Shown here piece after piece: positions 12,880 to 54,571 of a DNA stretch of 55,265 bases. The notes below the pieces were generated by a model. The model was not told where the DNA came from, did no database searches, and saw only the letters and a list, made by a program, of their open reading frames with translations. Position 1 is the first letter of the stretch. Each line of letters starts with the position of its first letter. Location: positions 1-55,265 of the forward strand of contig JAHWKK010000026.1 in assembly GCA_019347945.1 (NCBI GenBank). The letters are read 5' to 3'. Source of the stretch: Acidobacteriota bacterium. Its GTDB lineage: Bacteria; Acidobacteriota; Thermoanaerobaculia; Gp7-AA8; JAHWKK01. Both the position numbers and the translations under genes were made by a program.

Positions 12880-13124
12880 TGAAGAGTGAAGAGTGAGGAG
12901 TGAAGAGTGAAAGAAAAGCGGTTGCTGGTTGCAGGTGCCGGTTGCAGGTGTGCCGCCGGTGGCCGGTGGACGGTTGACGAAATCGCATTGCGGAGTGCGT
13001 GGGACGGTGATTCACGACCCCCCGGTCGGCGCTTCGCTGGGCCCAGGATGACGAGCGCAGAATGGAGGTGACGATTCACAACGCTGTGTTCTTTCACTCT
13101 TCACTCTTCACTCTTCACTCTTCA
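12880..13124. repeat. Heptamer-bounded intergenic element E1
   Basis: Left array of four TGAAGAG-type units (12880-12907), a core of about 180 bases, and a right array of four perfect CTCTTCA units (13097-13124) in inverted orientation. The right array directly abuts the stop codon of moeB (13125-13127). The core holds a module also found in other elements (cttcgctgggcccaggatga at 13032-13051), and an alternating gccggttgcaggt-like stretch. No protein-coding frame is credible. Confidence 0.85.
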
Positions 13125-14282
13125 TCAATACTTCGGCTGGCTCGGATCGATCTCGTCGGACCAGGCGAGAACGCCCCCTTCGAGGTTGGTCGCGCGGAAT
13201 CCCTGGTTCCGGAGAAAGTTCGCCGCCATCGCGCTCCGTTTGCCGCTTCGGCAATGAACGATGATCTCCTTCGAGCTGTCCAGCTCGCCGACACGGTCGC
13301 GAAGCTCTCCGAGAGGGATTGGGACGGCGTCGGGGATGCGGCTGATCTCCCGCTCGTGCGGCTCGCGGACGTCGACCAGTACGAAGCTCTCGTCCTCCCT
13401 CTCCATCCTCTCTTTCAGCCCGCGTACATCGATAGAATCGGTCATCTTTTCCTCACCTTCGGGAGACGGCTCCCGCTGCGTTCCGCAAAAGGCATCGTAG
13501 TCGATCGGCTCCAGAATCGTGGGAGCGTCGCCACAGAGCGGACAGCCGGGGTCGCGTCGCAGCAGGATCTGCCGGGTCGTCATTGAGCGGCCGTCGACGA
13601 TCAGCAGCCGGCCCGCCAGAGTTTCGCCCAGCTTCAGGATCCACTTGATCGCTTCGAGTGCCTGAATCGTTCCAATCAGCCCAGGAATCACACCGAGAAC
13701 GCCGGCCTCCTCGCAGTCGGGCACCGACCCCGGAGGCGGAGGCTCCAGATGGAGGCATCGGTAGCAGCCGGTTCCGGGAGAATGAAAAACGCTGACCTGC
13801 CCCTCGAACCGATGAATGCTCCCGTAGATATCGGGAATGCCGGTGAGAAAGGCGCAATCGTTGACTAGATAGCGCGCCGGAAAGTTGTCTGTTCCGTCCA
13901 GCACCAGATCGTAGTCCGCGAAGATCTCCATCGCGTTCGCCGATTCGAGAAGGACATCGTGGCGATTGATCACGACGTGGGGATTGAGCTCGGCGAGCCG
14001 CCCGGCCGCGCTCTCCACCTTCGAGGTGCCGATCCCGCCGGTCCCATGGACGATCTGCCGCTGCAGATTGCTCGCGTCGACGCGGTCGAAATCGACGATG
14101 CCGATCGTTCCGACGCCTGCGGCGGCGAGATAAAGCAGCGCCGGTGAACCGAGGCCTCCCGTTCCGACGCAGAGAACACGAGCGTTCTTCAGCTTCCGCT
14201 GCCCCTCGAGTCCGACCTCCGGCAATACGAGATGCCGGGCATACCGGGCGATCTCCTCGTGCGTCAGCCCGGCGTCGTTCAT
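13125..14282 (-). CDS. moeB: MoeB/ThiF-family sulfur-carrier adenylyltransferase with C-terminal rhodanese domain
   Basis: Residues 1 to about 250 are an E1-like adenylyltransferase that activates the C-terminal glycine of a small sulfur carrier such as MoaD or ThiS. Seen are VGTGGLGSPA (ATP loop), IVDFDRVDASNLQRQ, the DGTDNFPARY segment, and zinc-binding pairs CYRC and CPLC. Residues about 285-385 are a rhodanese domain with the active-site cysteine in HCRSGKRS, which would supply sulfur. This MoeB-rhodanese fusion is well known (MoeZ-like). It overlaps the thioesterase gene by four bases. The stop codon lies directly against the heptamer array of E1. A moaA gene at 40979 in the same window supports a molybdopterin role; thiamine or cysteine synthesis is also possible. 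Confidence 0.88.
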   Translation of the reverse strand: MNDAGLTHEEIARYARHLVLPEVGLEGQRKLKNARVLCVGTGGLGSPALLYLAAAGVGTIGIVDFDRVDASNLQRQIVHGTGGIGTSKVESAAGRLAELNPHVVINRHDVLLESANAMEIFADYDLVLDGTDNFPARYLVNDCAFLTGIPDIYGSIHRFEGQVSVFHSPGTGCYRCLHLEPPPPGSVPDCEEAGVLGVIPGLIGTIQALEAIKWILKLGETLAGRLLIVDGRSMTTRQILLRRDPGCPLCGDAPTILEPIDYDAFCGTQREPSPEGEEKMTDSIDVRGLKERMEREDESFVLVDVREPHEREISRIPDAVPIPLGELRDRVGELDSSKEIIVHCRSGKRSAMAANFLRNQGFRATNLEGGVLAWSDEIDPSQPKY

Positions 14283-26407: not shown

Positions 26408-26426
26408 GGCCGTCATCATCCTAATA

Positions 26427-26781
26427 GAGAAGAGTGAAGAGTGAAGAGTGAAGAGTGAAACAGAGGCAGGCCCGTGAAAAAGTGACAGGGCGCAGAATCA
26501 AACCTCCCTGACCGGGAGGGCGAGGCTCCTGCCGAGCCGCCCTGTTGCATTCCACCGAAATGTCACCTGAAACCATTCTGTCTCGGCCAGCCCTCGATTT
26601 TCGCCTGAACGAACTTTCTGCCATTTCGTGTGGGGGCGGCTCGGCAGGAGCCTCGCCCTCCCAGTGATGGGGGGAATCGCGCAAGCTCGTGACGGGGCGC
26701 GGGCGCCTCGCTCTCTGGCTGGATGAATGCTTCTCTTCACTCTTCACTCTTCACTCTTCACTCTTCACTCTTCACTCTTCG
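26427..26781. repeat. Heptamer-bounded intergenic element E2
   Basis: Left array with three perfect TGAAGAG units (26435-26455) and a right array of six perfect CTCTTCA units plus one variant (26733-26781), inverted. The core of about 270 bases holds a perfect 28-base inverted repeat (26514-26541 and 26635-26662) around a 93-base loop. The element lies between two divergent genes, and the right array ends directly at the TATACT before cysS. Open frames in it are translated repeat. Confidence 0.88.
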
Positions 26782-37587: not shown

Positions 37588-37620
37588 GGACCGGTCCCTT
37601 TGCGAACGGCAGACCAGGAG

Positions 37621-38035
37621 GAAGAGTGAGGAGTGAGGAGTGAAGAGTGAAGAGTGAAGAGTGAAGAGTGAAGAGTGAAAGAGAAGAGTGAAGAGTGAAA
37701 GAAGGGCCGGGGCGGGTCGTGAATTGACGTGATGCCCTTTCCGCGTCAAATCAGTCACGAGCCCCCAACCAGATCCTTCGCCGTCCTTCGGCGGCTCAGG
37801 ATGACGAGGAGGTGGGTTTCGCGAGAGCAAACATTCGTTCATGACCGTCGCTTCGCGCGAACAGAGCATTCGTCATTCTGAGCCCGGCGCAGCGCTGGCG
37901 AAGAATCCGGGCGGTGGCTCGTGGTCAAGGGTGAGAGTTTGGAGATGTTACCTTCGCGGCGTCTCTTCTTCACTCTTCACTCTTCACTCTTCACTCTTCT
38001 CTTTCACTCTTCACCCTTCACTCTTCACTCTTCTT
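37621..38035. repeat. Heptamer-bounded intergenic element E3
   Basis: Left array of TGAAGAG-type units (37621-37702, about ten, some TGAGGAG), a core of about 260 bases, and an inverted CTCTTCA array (about 37963-38035). The right array runs into the stop codon of ald (38036-38038). The core holds ccttcggcggctcaggatga (37784-37803) and a related inverted module (37869-37910), and ends with a GTTACCTTCGCGGCGTCTC boundary. The core is close to the reverse complement of the core of element E4. No gene. Confidence 0.87.
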
Positions 38036-39148
38036 TCAGCTCATCGCTGTTGCCAGGGGAACGAACTCCTTCTTCTGGCTGTCGGCGACTGCCTTGTAGG
38101 TCAGCTTGCCGTTCCACGTATTCACCCCGTCGGCGAGACCGGTGTGCTGCCGCACCGCGTCCTCCACACCTTCGGCGAGCATTCTGAGATATGGAAGCGT
38201 GGCGTTCGTGAGGGCGATGGTGGAAGTCCGCGGAACCGCACCCGGCATGTTCGCGACGCAGTAGTGGACCACTCCGTCCACGTCGTAGGTCGGTTTCGAA
38301 TGTGTCGTCGCTTTGGTCGTTTCGAAGCATCCGCCCTGATCGACCGCGACGTCGACGGCGACTGCCCCTTTTTTCATTCGGGAGATCATCTCTCGGGTCA
38401 CGAGCTTCGGCGCCGATGCCCCGGGGATCAGGACAGCACCCACGAGCAGGTCAGCGTGCTCGCAGGCGCGCTCGATATGGAGCGTATTCGAAGCCAGAGT
38501 CATGATCTGACCGTGAAAGACATCGTCGAGATAACGGAGCCGGTCGATGTTCGTGTCGAGGATCGTCACTCGCGCACCCAGACCGAGCGCCATCTTCGCC
38601 GCGTTGATCCCGACGATCCCTCCACCGATGATCACCACGTCCCCCGGGAGGACTCCCGGCACACCACCGAGGAGTACTCCGCGGCCGCCGTTCGGCTTCT
38701 GGAGGTAGTACGCCCCGACCTGAACCGACATCCGGCCGGCAACCTCGGACATCGGAGCCAGCAGCGGGAGCGAGCCCCCGCGTCCGGTGATCGTTTCGTA
38801 TGCGATCCCGGCGATCTTCCGCTCGAGTAGTACGTCGGTCAGCTCCGGGATCGGTGCGAGATGGAGATAGGTAAAGAGATACTGACCGGGCCGCATCCGT
38901 GGATACTCTTCCGCGATCGGCTCCTTGACCTTGACCACGAGATCGGCAGCGCCCCACACCGCATCGGCATCGGGCAGCATCTCGGCGCCGGCCGCGACGT
39001 ACTCCTCGTCGGCGAAACCGCTCGAATCCCCTCCACCCTTCTCGACATAAACCGTGTGGCCCGCGTCGACCACCTCCCGCACTCCGGAGGGGACCATGCC
39101 AATCCGCGACTCGTTGTCCTTGACTTCCTTCGGCACACCGATCTTCAT
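38036..39148 (-). CDS. ald: Alanine dehydrogenase
   Basis: Interconverts L-alanine and pyruvate plus ammonium with NAD. The 370-residue length is typical. Landmarks: [15 protein letters not shown] at the N-terminus, the substrate lysine in V-V-K-V-K-E-P, Y-L-H-L-A, and the NAD site [10 protein letters not shown] (about 170-185) after G-V-P-G-V-L-P. The C-terminal segment [19 protein letters not shown] is diagnostic of Ald as opposed to transhydrogenase. The stop codon falls within the last degenerate unit of repeat element E3. Confidence 0.95.
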
Positions 39149-42085: not shown

Positions 42086-44014
42086 ATGACTCGAACCATC
42101 AAACCTTCCATTCTCATCCTGGCGATCACGATGCTGGCGGGATGCGGCTCACTCATTCGCTCGGACGACGCCACGCTCTACGAGGCCACTCGCTCCGAGG
42201 CGACTCGCGACTGGAGAGTCGTGAATCTCGTGAGTCCGGGCGCCGATCCTCATTCCTTCTCGCGACCCGATCAGGTCTCCGTGGATCATCTGACGCTCGA
42301 ACTCGACGTCGACTTTGCGCGGGAGGTCCTCAGCGGCACGGCTACGCTGTCGATTGCGAACCACACCGGAGCAGATCGTCTCATTCTCGACACCCGCGAT
42401 CTGACGATCCGTGACGTCACCTGGGGCGATGGCCGCGACGCTCGCTGGTTCCTCACCCAGCCGACCGAATTGCTCGGGCGAGCGCTCGTGATCGAGCTGG
42501 TCCCCGGCGTCGAGAAAGTCGTGATCGATTACGAGACGTCCCCCAAGGCCGCTGCGGTGCAGTGGCTCGGCCCCGAACAGACCGCGAGCGGCAAGCCGTT
42601 TCTCTTCACACAGAGCCAGGCGATTCTCGCCAGGACCTGGGTCCCCATTCAGGACACTCCGGGTGTGCGGTTCACCTACGATGCGACTGTCCGCGTCCCG
42701 CAGGGGATGCTGGCGCTGATGAGCGCGGAGAATCCGACCTCGATCAACGGCACGGGGGTGTACAGCTTCCGGATGCCGCAGCCGATCCCGTCCTATCTTC
42801 TGGCTCTGGCAGCCGGTGATCTCCGGTTCCGTTCGCTCGGCCCGCGCTCGGGCGTATATGCGGAGCCGAGCGTGGTCGAAGCAGCAGCCTCCGAGTTTTC
42901 CGACACCCCGAAGATGATCACGGCCGCCGAGGAGATGTACGGACCGTACCGGTGGGGTCGGTACGACATTCTCGTCCTCCCCGCCAGCTTCCCCTTCGGA
43001 GGGATGGAGAATCCGCGCCTGACGTTCGCGACGCCCACGATCATCGCGGGAGACCGCTCGCTGGTATCGCTGGTCGCTCACGAGCTCGCCCATTCCTGGT
43101 CCGGCAATCTCGTCACCAACGCGACATGGAACGACTTCTGGCTCAACGAAGGCTTCACCAACTATTTCACCGAACGGATCATGGAGGAGCTTTACGGACG
43201 CGACTATTCGGAGATGCTCGCCGTCCTCGATCTTCAGGATCTCCGCGAGGAGATCGACGATCTCGGGCCGACCTCCGCCGACACACACCTCTATCTCGAT
43301 CTGGCAGGCCGCGATCCGGACGAAGGAATGACGAACGTTGCATACGTCAAGGGACATTTCTTCCTTCGGTGGCTCGAGCAGCAGTTCGGCAGGGAGAGGT
43401 TCGACCGCTTCCTCCGCGAGTGGTTCGACGAGAACGCGTTCGAGTCGAGAACGACCGCCGAGTTCGTCGAGTTTCTCGACGATCGACTTCTGTCTGGTTC
43501 GGAGATCGATGTGACGGACGTCCAGCGATGGATCTACAGTCCTGCTCTGCCGTCGTCGCTCCGCGAGCCGCAATCCGACCGTTTCTCGGAAGTCGAAAGG
43601 GAGATCGATCGGTTCATGACCGGCACGCCGGCAACGCAGCTCGAAGTCGATGGCTGGTCGACACATGAATGGCTGCATTTCATCCGAAATCTCCCGACGC
43701 TCGATGAATCGCAGATGGCGCGGCTCGACGCGGCCTTCAATCTCTCGGAGACCGGGAACAGCGAGATCAAGTTCGCCTGGCTGACCGCGGCAATCCGGGC
43801 GGATTACGACCCGGCCTACCCGGTCCTCGAACAATTCCTCACCGAGATGGGACGGCGCAAGTTCGTCCTTCCTCTGTTCGAGGATCTCGCAAAAACCGAG
43901 AAGGGGATGATCATCGCCCGGAGGATCTACTCGAAGACCCGCCCGATGTACCACACGATCACCCGCGATTCCGTCGACGAGGCGCTGGGCTGGAACGAGT
44001 GGAGAGAAGAGTGA
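42086..44014 (+). CDS. M1-family metallopeptidase, lipoprotein
   Basis: A 642-residue zinc aminopeptidase related to leukotriene-A4 hydrolase. Residues 1-20 are a lipoprotein signal ending in L-A-G-C (Cys20). The peptidase domain has the exopeptidase motif G-G-M-E-N (305-309) and the zinc site H332-E333-x-x-H336 with Glu355 18 residues on, in N-E-G-F-T-N-Y-F. The C-terminal helical domain (W-I-Y-S-P-A-L-P) matches the LTA4-hydrolase type. GGAGG lies before the ATG. The stop codon TGA (44012-44014) is the TGA of the first TGAAGAG unit of element E4, so the last residues (R-E-E) come from the repeat. Confidence 0.94.
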   Translation: MTRTIKPSILILAITMLAGCGSLIRSDDATLYEATRSEATRDWRVVNLVSPGADPHSFSRPDQVSVDHLTLELDVDFAREVLSGTATLSIANHTGADRLILDTRDLTIRDVTWGDGRDARWFLTQPTELLGRALVIELVPGVEKVVIDYETSPKAAAVQWLGPEQTASGKPFLFTQSQAILARTWVPIQDTPGVRFTYDATVRVPQGMLALMSAENPTSINGTGVYSFRMPQPIPSYLLALAAGDLRFRSLGPRSGVYAEPSVVEAAASEFSDTPKMITAAEEMYGPYRWGRYDILVLPASFPFGGMENPRLTFATPTIIAGDRSLVSLVAHELAHSWSGNLVTNATWNDFWLNEGFTNYFTERIMEELYGRDYSEMLAVLDLQDLREEIDDLGPTSADTHLYLDLAGRDPDEGMTNVAYVKGHFFLRWLEQQFGRERFDRFLREWFDENAFESRTTAEFVEFLDDRLLSGSEIDVTDVQRWIYSPALPSSLREPQSDRFSEVEREIDRFMTGTPATQLEVDGWSTHEWLHFIRNLPTLDESQMARLDAAFNLSETGNSEIKFAWLTAAIRADYDPAYPVLEQFLTEMGRRKFVLPLFEDLAKTEKGMIIARRIYSKTRPMYHTITRDSVDEALGWNEWREE

Positions 44015-44488
44015 AGAGTGAAAAGTGAAGAGTGAAGAGTGAAGAGTGAAAGGAGAGACGCCGCGAAGGTAACCTCTCCTATCTCACCCTAGAGTCACAA
44101 GCCTGCCCCAGATCCTTCGCCCGCGCTGCGCCAGGCTCAGAATGACGAATGTTGCGTTTGCGCGAAGCGACGATCATGGACGAATGTTTGCTCTCGCGAA
44201 CCCCCGGTTCGTTATCCTGAGCCGCCGAAGGACGGCGTGAATCCGCATTGAGAGGTCAGGACAAGTGATCACGCGCCCGCCTCTCCTTTCACTCTTCACT
44301 CTTCACTCTTCACTCTTCACTCTTCACTCTTCACTCTTCACTCTTCACTCTTCACTCTTCTTCTTGAGGTTACCCTTCGCGCCGCCTCTTCTTTCACTCT
44401 TCACTCTTCACTCTTCACTCTTCTTCTTGAGGTTACCCTTCGCGCCGCCTCTTCTTTCACTCTTCACTCTTCACTCTTCACTCTTCTT
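44005..44488. repeat. Heptamer-bounded intergenic element E4
   Basis: Left array (44005-44052) starts inside the last codons of the M1 gene. It is followed by a core with agacgccgcgaaggtaacct (44055-44074) at its edge, and by three CTCTTCA arrays on the right (44284-44360, 44393-44423, 44454-44488). The right arrays are separated by two copies of a 63-base unit beginning ttcttgaggttacccttcgc (44361 and 44424). The core matches E3 in reverse orientation. The element ends about 50 bases before the patatin gene. No gene. Confidence 0.88.
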
Positions 44489-44535
44489 CTGTATCCCCGG
44501 ACACATGGTACGGGCACCCAGCGTACAATCCCCGC

Positions 44536-45708
44536 ATGGGTAGCGACATCGCGGTGGTGCTCGGAGGAGGCGGCGCGCGTGCGGCCTATCAGGTCGGCGT
44601 CCTGCGTGCGATCGCGCGAGAGCGTCCGGAGTTCCGCTTTCCGATCATCACGGGCGTCTCGGCGGGCGGCATCAACGCCGCGTTTCTCGGGGCCGTCGGC
44701 GCCGATTGCTCTCTTCACCCCGTCGATCAGCTCACCGAGCTCTGGATGACGCTCCGGATGAAGGACGTCTTCGAGACGGACTCGCTCACCGCGAGTCGAA
44801 TCGCGATGAGCTGGCTCAAGCGTCTCGCTTCGGGTGGCCGGGGGGCGCGAAACGCGAGCCCCGCCCTTCTCGACACGAGCCCGCTCCGGGAGTTTCTCGG
44901 GAAGGCGTTCAATGCCCGGGCGGACGGGTCCATTCCAGGCGTGGAGGAAAATATCCAGCATGGCGCGCTCGACGCGCTCGCGCTCACGACGCTCAACTAC
45001 ACGACTGGGCAGACGATCACCTGGGTGCAGGGGCGCGAGATCGAGACGTGGGAGCGCCCGAACCGTCGCAGCATCCAGACTCCGATCACCATCGAGCACG
45101 TCATGGCTTCAGCCGCCCTCCCGATACTCTTTCCTGCTGTGCAGATCGGCGCCTCCTGGTACGGTGACGGCGGCGTCCGTCTCTCGGCGCCGCTCTCGCC
45201 GGCCCTCCATCTCGGCGCACGCCGCATGCTCGTGATCTCGACCCGTTACAATCGCAGCTTCGAGGAAGCGGATATCGCCGAAACTCCCGGGTATCCCCCG
45301 CCGGCCCAGATTCTCGGCCAGCTCGTGAAGGCGATCTTTCTCGACGTCATCGATCAGGACGTCCTTCGCGTCGAATTGATCAATTCTCTTCTCGAGAACC
45401 TCGAGCCGGATGCGCGCCTCGGTCTTTCTCCGATTCGACTTGTCGTCGTCCGCCCCTCCGAGGATCTCGGTGTCCTCGCGGCTGGCTACGAAAAAACCCT
45501 CCCTCCCGCTTTCCGCTACATGACACGGGGCCTCGGTTCACGCGAAACGAGGAGCGCCGATTTCCTCAGCATGCTGATGTTCGAGCCGGAGTTCATGATG
45601 AAGCTCATCGATCTCGGCGAGAACGATGCGGACGCTCAGATGGAGGAGATCCTCGGCGTTCTGGATGAAGAGCGACCGGCGGAACAATCGCGAATGACGG
45701 GTGGTTGA
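44536..45708 (+). CDS. Patatin-like phospholipase/acylhydrolase
   Basis: A 390-residue serine hydrolase of the patatin family. The oxyanion loop G-G-G-G-A-R-A-A-Y, the nucleophile elbow G-V-S-A-G-G (Ser42) and the catalytic aspartate in D-G-G-V-R (about 215) are all present. Like RssA-type and bacterial patatins it probably hydrolyses acyl chains from lipids; no signal peptide is seen, so it is likely cytoplasmic. The C-terminal 100 residues continue past the patatin core (L-S-M-L-M-F-E-P-E-F) as in the DUF3336-free subfamily. tRNA-Gln lies 13 bases after its stop codon. Confidence 0.9.
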   Translation: MGSDIAVVLGGGGARAAYQVGVLRAIARERPEFRFPIITGVSAGGINAAFLGAVGADCSLHPVDQLTELWMTLRMKDVFETDSLTASRIAMSWLKRLASGGRGARNASPALLDTSPLREFLGKAFNARADGSIPGVEENIQHGALDALALTTLNYTTGQTITWVQGREIETWERPNRRSIQTPITIEHVMASAALPILFPAVQIGASWYGDGGVRLSAPLSPALHLGARRMLVISTRYNRSFEEADIAETPGYPPPAQILGQLVKAIFLDVIDQDVLRVELINSLLENLEPDARLGLSPIRLVVVRPSEDLGVLAAGYEKTLPPAFRYMTRGLGSRETRSADFLSMLMFEPEFMMKLIDLGENDADAQMEEILGVLDEERPAEQSRMTGG

Positions 45709-49680: not shown

Positions 49681-49738
49681 AGAGAAGAGTGAAGAGGCTG
49701 TTACTCAAAGCCCTTCACTCTTCACTCTTCACTCTTCG
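49681..49738. repeat. Minimal heptamer-bounded element E5
   Basis: The shortest example: agagaagagtgaagag (49681-49696), a 14-16 base core, and inverted units CCCTTCA-CTCTTCA-CTCTTCA-CTCTTCG (49711-49738). It lies between two converging genes. The stop codon of fadJ (49715-49717) is inside the first inverted unit, and the preceding units encode the last residues of FadJ. The arms could fold into a compact hairpin serving both genes. Confidence 0.8.
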
Positions 49739-51865
49739 TTCACTCCACTCCTGATAGAAGGTGCCGCCCTTCTCCGCGACGCGGCGAATCGCCTGCGAGG
49801 GCTCGAACCGTTTGCCGTGCTCCTTCGCCAGCGCTTCGAGTCGTGCAAGAACGCGGTTGGAACCGAGAGTATCCCCGTACCGGAGGAGCCCGCCGCGGAA
49901 TGGCGGAAAACCGGTTCCCATGATCATTGCGAGGTCGACGTCTGCTGCACTCGCCGCGATTCCTTCGTCGAGAATCCTCGTCGCTTCATTGATCATCGCC
50001 AGGATCATCCGCTCGGACATCGCCTTCCGGTCGCCGGCCACGGGATCGTCGACTTCGAGAAGCCGGTAGACGTCCTCGTCGGGCTCGTCCCTCTTCCCGT
50101 TGTCCCATACGTAGATGCCACGGCCGTTCTTCTTTCCATAGCGCTCGTCCGCGACCAGCGTCTCGACCAGAGGCGAAGCCTCCATCCGGTCCCCGAACGC
50201 CTCCATCATGATCTGCCCCGACTTTGCTGCGATGTCGATCCCGACCTCGTCGAGAAGTGCGAGGGGTCCGAGCGGCATCCCGAAATCGGTCATCGCTCCG
50301 TCGATCGACCCGATTGAATTTTCCTCGATCAGGAGGAAACCCGCCTCGTTGATGTAGGGAGCGAGGATCCGGTTGACGATGAACCCCGGGCCGTCCTTGC
50401 AGATGACCACGGTCTTCCCCATCCGCTTGCCGAGCTGATGGATCGTCGAGACCGTCTCGGGGGAGGTCTTCTCGCCGACGATCACCTCGACGAGCGGCAT
50501 CTTGTCCACCGGACTGAAAAAGTGCATGCCGATCACATTTTCGGGATGGCTCGCAGCCTCGGCGATCCGCGTGATCGGAATGGTCGATGTGTTGGTGGCA
50601 AAGATGACGCCGGGCTTGCCGACCGATTCGACTTCGCGAAGGACTGACTGTTTGATCTCGAGCTTTTCGACGACGGCCTCGATGACGACGTCGACGGAGC
50701 GGAAGCCGGTCCAGTCGGTCGTCATCGTGATCTTCGCGAGACTCGCCTGCATCTCCCGGCGGCTCAGCCTTCGCTTTTCCACCTTCTTCTTCCAGATCTT
50801 CGACGCGGCGCGCATTCCGCCGGCGAGCGCATCCCACGAGATGTCGCGGACTCGGACCGGAAGATTCGCCTTCTCGACCAGCGTCTGAGCGATGCCGCCG
50901 CCCATCAGGCCCGCCCCGAGAACGCCGACCGAGTCGACCTTTGCGGGATCAGGCCCTTCGTGGCGCTTCGCCGCCTCCATCATGAAGAAGAGCCGCACGA
51001 GATGCGGTGCGACGTCACCCGTGATCAGCTCGGACGCCGCCCGCGCCTCCGCTTCGAGTCCCGCTTCGTAATCATCCTCGAAGCCCTTCTTCATCACCTC
51101 GATGGCTCTCAACGGCGCCGGATAGTTTCCGAGCGTCTGCTTCATCACACCCGACCGCGCCTTGTCGAAGATCACTTTTCGCGAGAGCGGATTGCCTTCG
51201 ACATAGATGCGTGACTTGTCCGCCTCCTTCTTCGAGGACTGCCGCCTGGCGAACGTCCGGGCTGCATCCATCCGGATCGACGCGGGGATCACATCGTCGA
51301 CGAGTCCGATCCCCTTTGCTTTCTTCGCCCGGATGTTCTTCCCGGTCAGGATCATGTCGAGCGCGGCGGGAAGTCCGACGATCCTCGGAAGCCTCGTCGT
51401 GCCGGTCCAGGCGGGGATGATGCCGAGCTTCACCTCCGGAAGGGCGATCATCGACTTTTCCCAGTCGGTGATCAGCCGGTAGTCGCAGTTGAGCGCCATC
51501 TCGGTGCCGCCCCCCATGCAGACCCCATGAATCACGGCGAAGGTCATCTGGGGAAGGCGGGACAGCTTCGTGAAGACGCTCTGTCCGTACCGGACGAACT
51601 CCGCCGCTTCGCTGGCATTCGGCACGTCCTGAAATCGGGAGATGTCGGCGCCCGCGATGAATCCGCTTTCCTTGCCCGATGCGATCAGGACCCGGGTGAT
51701 CGAGCTGCGCGCCGCGATCTCGCCGAGGATGCGGTCGAGCTCCTCGACGCTTTCGGGAGTGAACTTGTTGAGCTTCTCATCGGGGAGATCGAACCAGAGG
51801 ATACCGATGTCGTCCTCTTCGTCCAGCCTCCAGGCGTGGCGAACCACGGGTTCGGCAACCGTCAT
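49715..51865 (-). CDS. fadJ: Fatty-acid oxidation complex, enoyl-CoA hydratase/3-hydroxyacyl-CoA dehydrogenase
   Basis: A bifunctional beta-oxidation enzyme of about 716 residues. The N-terminal crotonase domain (1-190) has G-A-D-I-S-R-F (oxyanion region), V-C-M-G-G-G-T-E-M-A-L and L-P-E-V-K-L-G-I-I-P, in which the Glu is catalytic. From about 310 is the dehydrogenase: G-V-L-G-A-G-L-M-G-G-G-I-A (NAD loop), T-N-T-S-T-I-P-I, H-F-F-S-P-V and K-D-G-P-G-F-I-V-N-R. FadB and FadJ are alike; FadJ is used because there is no thiolase next door. Start ATG 51865 follows AAGGAG by ten bases; TTG 51874 is the alternative. The last seven residues (R-R-V-K-S-E-E) come from repeat element E5. Confidence 0.92.
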   Translation of the reverse strand: MTVAEPVVRHAWRLDEEDDIGILWFDLPDEKLNKFTPESVEELDRILGEIAARSSITRVLIASGKESGFIAGADISRFQDVPNASEAAEFVRYGQSVFTKLSRLPQMTFAVIHGVCMGGGTEMALNCDYRLITDWEKSMIALPEVKLGIIPAWTGTTRLPRIVGLPAALDMILTGKNIRAKKAKGIGLVDDVIPASIRMDAARTFARRQSSKKEADKSRIYVEGNPLSRKVIFDKARSGVMKQTLGNYPAPLRAIEVMKKGFEDDYEAGLEAEARAASELITGDVAPHLVRLFFMMEAAKRHEGPDPAKVDSVGVLGAGLMGGGIAQTLVEKANLPVRVRDISWDALAGGMRAASKIWKKKVEKRRLSRREMQASLAKITMTTDWTGFRSVDVVIEAVVEKLEIKQSVLREVESVGKPGVIFATNTSTIPITRIAEAASHPENVIGMHFFSPVDKMPLVEVIVGEKTSPETVSTIHQLGKRMGKTVVICKDGPGFIVNRILAPYINEAGFLLIEENSIGSIDGAMTDFGMPLGPLALLDEVGIDIAAKSGQIMMEAFGDRMEASPLVETLVADERYGKKNGRGIYVWDNGKRDEPDEDVYRLLEVDDPVAGDRKAMSERMILAMINEATRILDEGIAASAADVDLAMIMGTGFPPFRGGLLRYGDTLGSNRVLARLEALAKEHGKRFEPSQAIRRVAEKGGTFYQEWSERRVKSEE

Positions 51866-53756: not shown

Positions 53757-53984
53757 GGAAGAGTGAAGAGTGAAGAGTGAAGAGTGAAAGGAATGCTTGA
53801 CTGGGAGGGCGAGCCTCCGGTGAGCCGCGATCCTGGAAACCGAACCTGAAACCCGCAACGATCTGGGCGGTGTTTGGCGCCCGCTATCCAATCCCGCCAG
53901 ATCGCGGCTCGCCAGAGGCTCGCCCTCCCGCTGGTACGTGGCGAAAGGCTGTTCTTTCTTTCACTCTTCACTCTTCACTCTTCT
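53757..53984. repeat. Heptamer-bounded intergenic element E6
   Basis: Left array with three perfect TGAAGAG units (53764-53784), a core of about 170 bases, and inverted CTCTTCA units at 53964-53977 with degenerate copies after. The core has an imperfect 30-base inverted repeat (53802-53831 and 53901-53930) of the same sequence family as the 28-base repeat of E2. The stop codon of the thioredoxin-like gene (53975-53977) is inside a repeat unit. No gene. Confidence 0.87.
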
Positions 53985-54571
53985 TTTCTCTCTTCTTTCT
54001 CTTTCATGTCGAGGACGTCGGCGCTCGTCGCCCAGCGGGAACCGTGGTGGCGGACTGCGAGCTCTTTCCAGATTTTCGACAGCGCATCGAAGCCTTCGCG
54101 TTTGTAAGCCACCGCCCCCTGCCAGTACATCACCTCAGCGTGAACCTCGTCGATGCTCGTGAGGCTCGCGGCGATGTCGAGCGCGGCGGCCGCCGCGTCC
54201 GGCTCGTTCCCCACGAGCCGATCGAGGGCGAGTGCCATGTGAAGCCGGGCGCGAAACTCTTCAGGCGGAAGCCAGCCGGTCCACCGCGCCACCTCCGAGC
54301 CTCGGCCATTCAGAACGACGAACATCGGTGCCCAGATCGGTTTCGCCGAGCGGAAGAGATGACGAAGCTCGGGTTGGGGCTCGCGAATGTTCACCTGAAC
54401 GCTGATGAAACGCGCGGCGAGGAGCTCCTGGACAGCGGCGTCGGGGTACGTCACGGCACCCATCTTCCGGCATCCGAGTCAGCCGGGGGACCACATTTCC
54501 AGCAGGATCGGACGACCCGTTTCAGCGCTCAGCGCGGACGCTTCAGCCCACGGAATCCACTCGACCGCCAT
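53975..54571 (-). CDS. Thioredoxin-like selenoprotein (in-frame TGA read as selenocysteine)
   Basis: Reading from ATG 54571 the frame meets TGA at 54481-54479 and continues open to a second TGA at 53977-53975, 198 residues in all. The first TGA falls inside a thioredoxin active site: W27-S-P-G-U31-L-G-C34-R-K-M, which aligns residue for residue with the F-W-A-x-W-C-G-P-C-R-M-I of thioredoxins, U31 at the position of the first redox cysteine. A cis-proline segment follows (A-P-M-F-V-V-L-N-G-R-G). Upstream (P-I-L-L-E-M-W) and downstream halves make a thioredoxin domain only when joined. A hairpin with SECIS features starts 17 bases after the TGA. The C-terminal half is helical and ends in charged residues (K-E-K-E-E-R-K-E-E) coded by repeat element E6. 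Cysteine and not Sec, or a decayed gene, are the alternatives. Confidence 0.8.
54444..54461 (-). promoter_or_regulatory. Candidate bacterial SECIS element
   Basis: Read on the mRNA, 17 bases after the UGA, GGGUGC pairs with GUACCC (six pairs, one G-U) around the loop CGUGAC. The loop begins 24 bases after the UGA and has G as its second base. A small stem with a guanine among the first two loop bases, roughly 15-40 bases from the UGA, is the known pattern of bacterial SECIS elements recognised by SelB. Judged by eye only, without an energy calculation. Confidence 0.6.

Follow-up and report, generated by a model that had tools for sequence, protein, structure and literature searches.

Eukaryotic foldback (FB) elements carry inverted terminal repeats built from short tandem units, have variable centres and make target-site duplications. 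For the bacterial repeats described here, close published parallels exist in three studies. Rehm et al. (2015; PMC4692102) described arrays of the heptamers GGGAATC and GGGGA(C/T)T in Xanthomonas and Nostoc, with 70–75 convergent inverted pairs per Xanthomonas genome; the G-rich strand of these arrays is sense where a stop codon lies within 50 bp, some stops being overlapped, and antisense upstream of genes. The TAACTGA repeats of Beggiatoaceae, Cyanobacteria and Bacteroidetes have stops in all three frames, and 13 sets overlap the stop codon of the upstream gene, the author noting that ORFs must end there (MacGregor, 2015; PMC4679880). For the GTAG/CGTC REPs and REPINs, Di Nocera et al. (2013; PMC3733652) reported conv-REPs at < 20 bp from the 3′ ends on either side, and stop codons that are often provided by the REP termini. 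Here we describe intergenic elements of an Acidobacteriota genome that are bounded by arrays of the heptamer TGAAGAG and lie in and around the stop codons of their neighbours.

Arrays at gene ends in the window

The window, i.e. the whole stretch of 55,265 nt that was analysed, is contig C26 of a 3.72 Mb genome in 49 contigs; its elements and the genes that they touch are listed in Table 1. A first-pass annotation of the same DNA had placed the stop codons of the M1 peptidase, fadJ and 162-aa genes inside repeat units. We re-checked all three coordinates and they hold: each TGA lies within a (TGAAGAG)n array, and the encoded C-termini read WREE, RRVKSEE and RKEE, respectively. Equally sound were its observations that the moeB stop abuts an array and that the ald stop sits in a degenerate unit (TGAAAGAAGAG), which we find 2 bp outside the array. 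As profile matches run to the very end of both proteins (390/390 positions for MoeB and 368/370 for Ald), these two stops look native. The label 'thioredoxin-like', previously attached to the 162-aa gene, found no backing in either Pfam or NCBIfam.

Table 1. Repeat elements of the window and the genes whose ends they contain or adjoin
Feature	Position	Strand	Remarks
Element 1	12880–13124		Arrays 12880–12907 (+) and 13097–13124 (−); abuts the moeB stop, 13125–13127
moeB gene	13125–14282	−	Native stop, array adjoining
Element 2	26425–26781		Arrays 26428–26455 (+) and 26733–26781 (−); distances of 30 and 13 bp to the starts of two divergent genes
Element 3	37620–38034		Abuts the ald stop, 38036–38038; arrays 37620–37699 (+) and 37966–38034 (−) enclose two REP-like hairpins (37795, 37873) as well as inverted modules
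Alanine dehydrogenase gene (ald)	38036–39148	−	Native stop, array 2 bp beyond
M1/leukotriene-A4-hydrolase-like aminopeptidase gene	42086–44014	+	Native end GWNE, then array-encoded WREE and stop
Element 4, left-end (TGAAGAG)n array	44002–44050	+	Holds the M1 peptidase stop TGA, 44012–44014; encodes the C-terminal EE
Element 4, inner inverted-repeat module TGAAAGGAGAGACGCCGCGAAGGTAACCTCTCCTATCTCACCC	44044–44098	+	Common to 24/113 array inner ends genome-wide
Element 4, REP-like hairpin CCAGATCCTTCGCCCGCGCTGCGCCAGGCTCAGAATGACGA	44107–44150	+	
Element 4, second REP-like hairpin, inverted (TTATCCTGAGCCGCCGAAGGACGGCGTGAATCC)	44207–44250	−	
Element 4, right end	44288–44487	−	(CTCTTCA)n array, then perfect 63-bp tandem copies (array plus inner module)
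Element 5 (small)	49683–49738		Left array 49683–49696 (+), right array 49711–49738 (−); holds the FadJ stop, 49715–49717
fadJ-like gene	49715–51865	−	FYQEWSE, then RRVKSEE and stop from the array
Element 6	53757–53984		Left array 53757–53788 (+), right array 53960–53984 (−); holds the stop of the 162-aa gene, 53975–53977
162-aa gene	53975–54463	−	Ends RKEE and stop; no Pfam or NCBIfam match

All three proteins with repeat-encoded stops end in E-E, as had been noted earlier, but their endings R-E-E, K-S-E-E and K-E-E are not separate facts; they are the frames of a repeat of period 7. Read in frames 0, 1 and 2, repeated GAAGAGT (GAAGAGTGAAGAG...) yields EE, KSEE and RVKSEE, each followed by a stop. 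The E-E ending is thus mechanical, because 7 mod 3 = 1 and any frame that enters (GAAGAGT)n meets GAA-GAG-TGA within 21 bases.

Towards the right end of element 4, at positions 44330–44490, a 63-bp block that combines heptamer array and inner inverted-repeat module stands in 2.6 tandem copies, 100 % identical, which suggests that a composite unit has expanded recently. Just downstream of the same element lies a gene for a patatin-like phospholipase (44536–45708), with weak similarity to CBASS lipases.

Gene ends across the genome and in orthologues

The 17-mer TGAAGAGTGAAGAGTGA has 383 matches in the genome. We sampled 54 stretches chosen around arrays, together with the window, and found 121 arrays in them; 346 genes were called with our own codon-usage gene caller, for which start positions are rough. 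Of 110 outer array edges that were placed, 78 faced a gene 3′ end and 32 a 5′ end. The stop codon overlapped the array at 41 of the 78 3′-facing edges (three of these stops straddling the array edge), and ∼21 further stops lay 0–10 bp before the array. At edges 17–46 bp from the stop, the interval was mostly occupied by another heptamer (CAGGATT, GGAGGTT or GGGATTA), itself starting at the stop. The smallest distance between an array and a start codon was 13 bp across the 110 edges. Where genes flanked both sides, 39 of 101 stops fell inside an array, compared with 8.3 ± 2.6 expected from random placement in the same spacers. The stop-hugging arrangement is confirmed genome-wide.

Of 33 proteins whose reading frame runs two or more codons into an array, 30 ended in E-E, as opposed to 3 of 247 array-free proteins. 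Translation used the first, second and third TGA in the ratio 18 : 10 : 10, so that no frame preference for GAA-GAG-TGA was found and the counts are compatible with random entry (p = 0.19). Arrays of the stop-less heptamer CAGGATT are read through, with tails of 12–23 residues (loci L169, L190 and L194). A GGGATYA heptamer gives a neighbouring gene a TAG stop (gatTAGGGATCAGGG) at positions 1930–1986 of locus L173 and 3251–3281 of L152, so that a different motif and a different stop codon give the same effect. The stop of a gene for a Ku-like end-joining protein (L202, 7930–8072) is likewise supplied by an array. Two short contigs, C35 (L199) and C45 (L202), are rich in arrays, and contigs C10, C11, C15, C16, C18, C29, C30 and C40 have arrays at their ends; as several contigs end in this way, the arrays probably interrupt the assembly.

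For eleven affected genes, orthologues were taken from other genera, the nearest genomes belonging to other families of the same order (∼60 % protein identity). In these comparisons the array junction lay within ∼9 codons of the conserved C-terminus, and the residues replaced by the array numbered 2–12. With a slash at the junction, FadJ reads FYQEWSE/RRVKSEE where orthologues end FYQTYSRS and FYDAFAR; the M1 peptidase GWNE/WREE (orthologues KWR, GWSAE and KWGN); an enoyl-CoA hydratase YLDRTIVK/KKSEE (orthologue YLAKTVRK); and an FtsX-like protein SWAAVS/KREE (orthologue SWLSVRERSE). Relative to orthologues, a FabF-like synthase has lost ∼3–9 residues, and a MoaC-like protein has gained ∼5 before the array. 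Junctions so close to the conserved end mean that the C-terminus was swapped without meaningful truncation: of the two outcomes that the first-pass annotation had offered for such an alignment, replacement was seen and truncation was not. E-E ends in homologues lacking the repeat, which would have spoken against its reading, were absent from the orthologues examined. These cases illustrate how a repeat can change the stop codon and the last residues of dozens of genes and yet leave the genes intact. In annotation, protein ends in E-E or K-S-E-E beside TGAAGAG are repeat-encoded tails. A synteny search for empty sites returned one conserved gene pair, and the spacers of relatives measured ∼0–154 bp. 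Relatives also have heptamers of their own directly after orthologue stops, (GATTTTG)n at L208 in genome G012 and (GCAGACC)n at L254 in genome G001.

Element architecture and proposed insertion into short spacers

The arrays form inward-facing inverted pairs, 14–450 bp apart, at 29–31 spacers; no outward-facing pair across a spacer was seen in the sampled stretches. Aligned with one another from array to array, these spacers match along most of the unit with 70–90 % identity, and an alignment of 16 copies has nested symmetry, running from (TGAAGAG)n through TGAAAGAAGAGACGCCGCGAAGGTAACCTC, hairpin CCAGATCCTTCGCCGTCCTTCGGCGGCTCAGGATGACGA and the centre to the inverted hairpin, the inverted module and (CTCTTCA)n. 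Terminal inverted repeats are present, as in a MITE, but a comparison of the flanks gave no sign of the target-site duplication of a MITE (the longest shared flank was 3.03, against 3.12 after shuffling). Many arrays are unpaired. Some spacers have a different heptamer family at each end, both with the G-rich strand away from the gene, and these speak against a single element with matching ends, because such an element does not predict them without later recombination. Judged from these alignments, the arrays are the outer ends of dispersed, non-autonomous, palindromic intergenic elements of REPIN-like or foldback-like type. As to their mobilization, a RAYT was considered and rejected: Y1 transposases exist in the genome, but none of the eight Y1_Tnp loci has arrays or REPs nearby. 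RNA-templated (telomerase-like) addition was also set aside, no domain of RVT_1, the one Pfam family tested, being present in this 99.65 % complete genome.

Repeat-free convergent spacers have a median length of ∼15 bp and many are ≤ 0, and replacement of long native spacers is accordingly an unneeded assumption. Around convergent elements, a median of 2 bp of native DNA remains, with no significant difference from the repeat-free spacers (p = 0.14, a comparison of small samples with low power). As native spacers are so tiny, an insertion necessarily lands at a stop codon, and random insertion plus purifying selection suffices. We put the probability that element insertion into near-zero spacers, together with selection, explains the stop-hugging at about 0.68. 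Under this reading, element copies would have entered the very short spacers of the genome and come down nearly always on the stop codon or a few bases beyond. A copy landing in the last codons would bring a TGA that closes any frame within 21 bases, so that the gene would survive with a tail of 2–12 residues ending in E-E. Insertions elsewhere would be cleared by purifying selection, with arrays kept ≥ 13 bp from start codons. Whereas the architecture, the dispersal of the units as wholes, their positions, the random entry frames, the swapped C-termini and the compact spacers are shown by the data, we infer that the units are moved by some enzyme and that their position is set by selection and not by a choice of target. 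The earlier suggestion that the element was selected because it restores a stop codon at once stands as a reason why insertions are tolerated, since a TGA unit closes any frame within seven codons.

The first-pass annotation had also proposed that the element targets gene ends, and active targeting of 3′ ends, for instance of purine-rich ...GAGTGA stops by microhomology, or of terminators, is a live rival in which position reflects insertion specificity and not only selection. The excess of stops inside arrays over random placement in the present spacers speaks for it, and so does the recurrence of hugging in other genera and other phyla. At all 14 of 14 tandem-gene elements the array lies ≤ 2 bp from the stop and all of the native spacer is left with the downstream gene; promoter protection may explain this pattern, and a 3′-end preference would too. 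On the other hand, entry frames look random, abutting genes that have retained a native stop end in TAG and TAA as well as TGA, and such short native spacers offer little else to hit; with target-site duplications absent as well, targeting appears rather unlikely. It is a more doubtful proposal that the arrays are kept for a function at transcript 3′ ends, the long hairpin of inverted arrays terminating transcription, insulating neighbours or stabilizing mRNA, as proposed for REPs (PMC3733652). The element 4 transcript is predicted to fold at −211 kcal/mol (z = −11.6), although any inverted array pair would fold so, and elements are enriched in convergent spacers (28/58 vs 42/233 others) yet found between divergent genes too. 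Left and right array lengths show no covariation (rho = 0.02), which also disposes of co-evolution between the two arrays of an element; many arrays have no partner, and the signature of an intrinsic terminator was not found.

Growth in situ, by 7-nt polymerase slippage from the sequence of each gene end, would account for the dominance of period 7 among intergenic tandem repeats in all sampled genomes, and slippage of this length was proposed by Mrazek (2007), as cited in PMC4679880. It is nevertheless very improbable as the source of these arrays: dozens of unrelated genes share the motif and its inner modules, the copies can be aligned from array to array, array-free orthologues lack EE ends, and slippage alone gives no inverted pairs. 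Insertion into compact spacers, with selection, thus remains our preferred reading.

Array polarity and comparison with known systems

The orientation of the arrays follows a rule that extends beyond TGAAGAG. At the loci of this genome, 152 arrays of period 7 were found vs one of period 8, and period 7 dominates intergenic tandem repeats here as it does in three related genera (arrays played no part in the choice of the G001 sample). Besides TGAAGAG, the genome has at least six degenerate heptamer families, namely CAGGATT, GGAGGTT, GGGATCA, GACGAGT, GCCGGTT and GGGACGC, often nested in the same spacers with the same polarity (L155, L159, L172, L175, L181, L185, L189, L194, L199, L200 and L202). 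In this genome, 88/89 TGAAGAG arrays have their G-rich strand pointing away from the closest gene, as do 25/25 arrays of other heptamers within 60 bp of a gene, and the same polarity is seen in the three related genera (17/20, 18/20 and 8/8). Unpartnered TGAAGAG arrays, judged by the distances of outer and inner genes, follow it in 39 of 42 cases. At distant loci, which were chosen by TGAAGAG and come from Bacteroidota, Verrucomicrobiota, Planctomycetota and others, polarity near 3′ ends is kept by 35/39 TGAAGAG arrays and 11/11 of other heptamers; near 5′ ends, where start calls are unreliable, the figures are weak (3/7 and 7/9, respectively).

One candidate explanation for this shared polarity is a motif-independent directional process that lays 7-nt repeats inward from gene edges in many bacterial phyla, with the G-rich strand away from the gene, an idea that we consider unlikely. 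If true, a single mechanism for TGAAGAG, GGAGGTT, CAGGATT, TAGCGGG and GGGAATC would shape bacterial intergenic DNA in a way not described so far; it might be a mobile system specific for heptamers, or a process of repair or priming that acts on one strand. That the rule holds for several motifs in several phyla, including a motif unable to form G-quadruplexes, argues against G-quadruplex formation as its reason.

With the arrays of Rehm et al. (2015), those described here share a tandem 7-nt unit dispersed in intergenic DNA, convergent inverted pairs and strand polarity. The motif is another one, however: TGAAGAG has no GGG or G-tract and cannot form the G-quadruplex that those authors stressed, whilst its unit supplies the stop codon and the dispersed copies show a palindromic core that bears REP-like hairpins. 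The TAACTGA repeats (MacGregor, 2015) differ in lying mostly just upstream of starts, in being read as translational regulators and in having no paired inverted architecture. Likeness to the elements of Di Nocera et al. (2013) resides in the palindromic hairpins, which stand in inverted pairs between genes in the 16-element alignment; CGTC is found ahead of an AT-starting stem and precedes ATCCTGAG, although neither the length of the stem nor the tail is that of the published CGTC families, the outer ends are heptamer arrays and no RAYT was found adjoining. FB elements are similar in their inverted short-tandem ends, but belong to another domain of life and differ in their target-site duplications, of which none was seen here. 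What is new, when set against these systems, is a motif that cannot form a G-quadruplex, a palindromic core that contains REP-like hairpins, the extent to which stops are captured, the evidence from orthologues and a polarity rule that spans motifs and phyla. A rule of position and polarity published for G-quadruplex heptamers in two genera is widened to TGAAGAG; it now covers several motifs within a single genome, and more than one phylum follows it.
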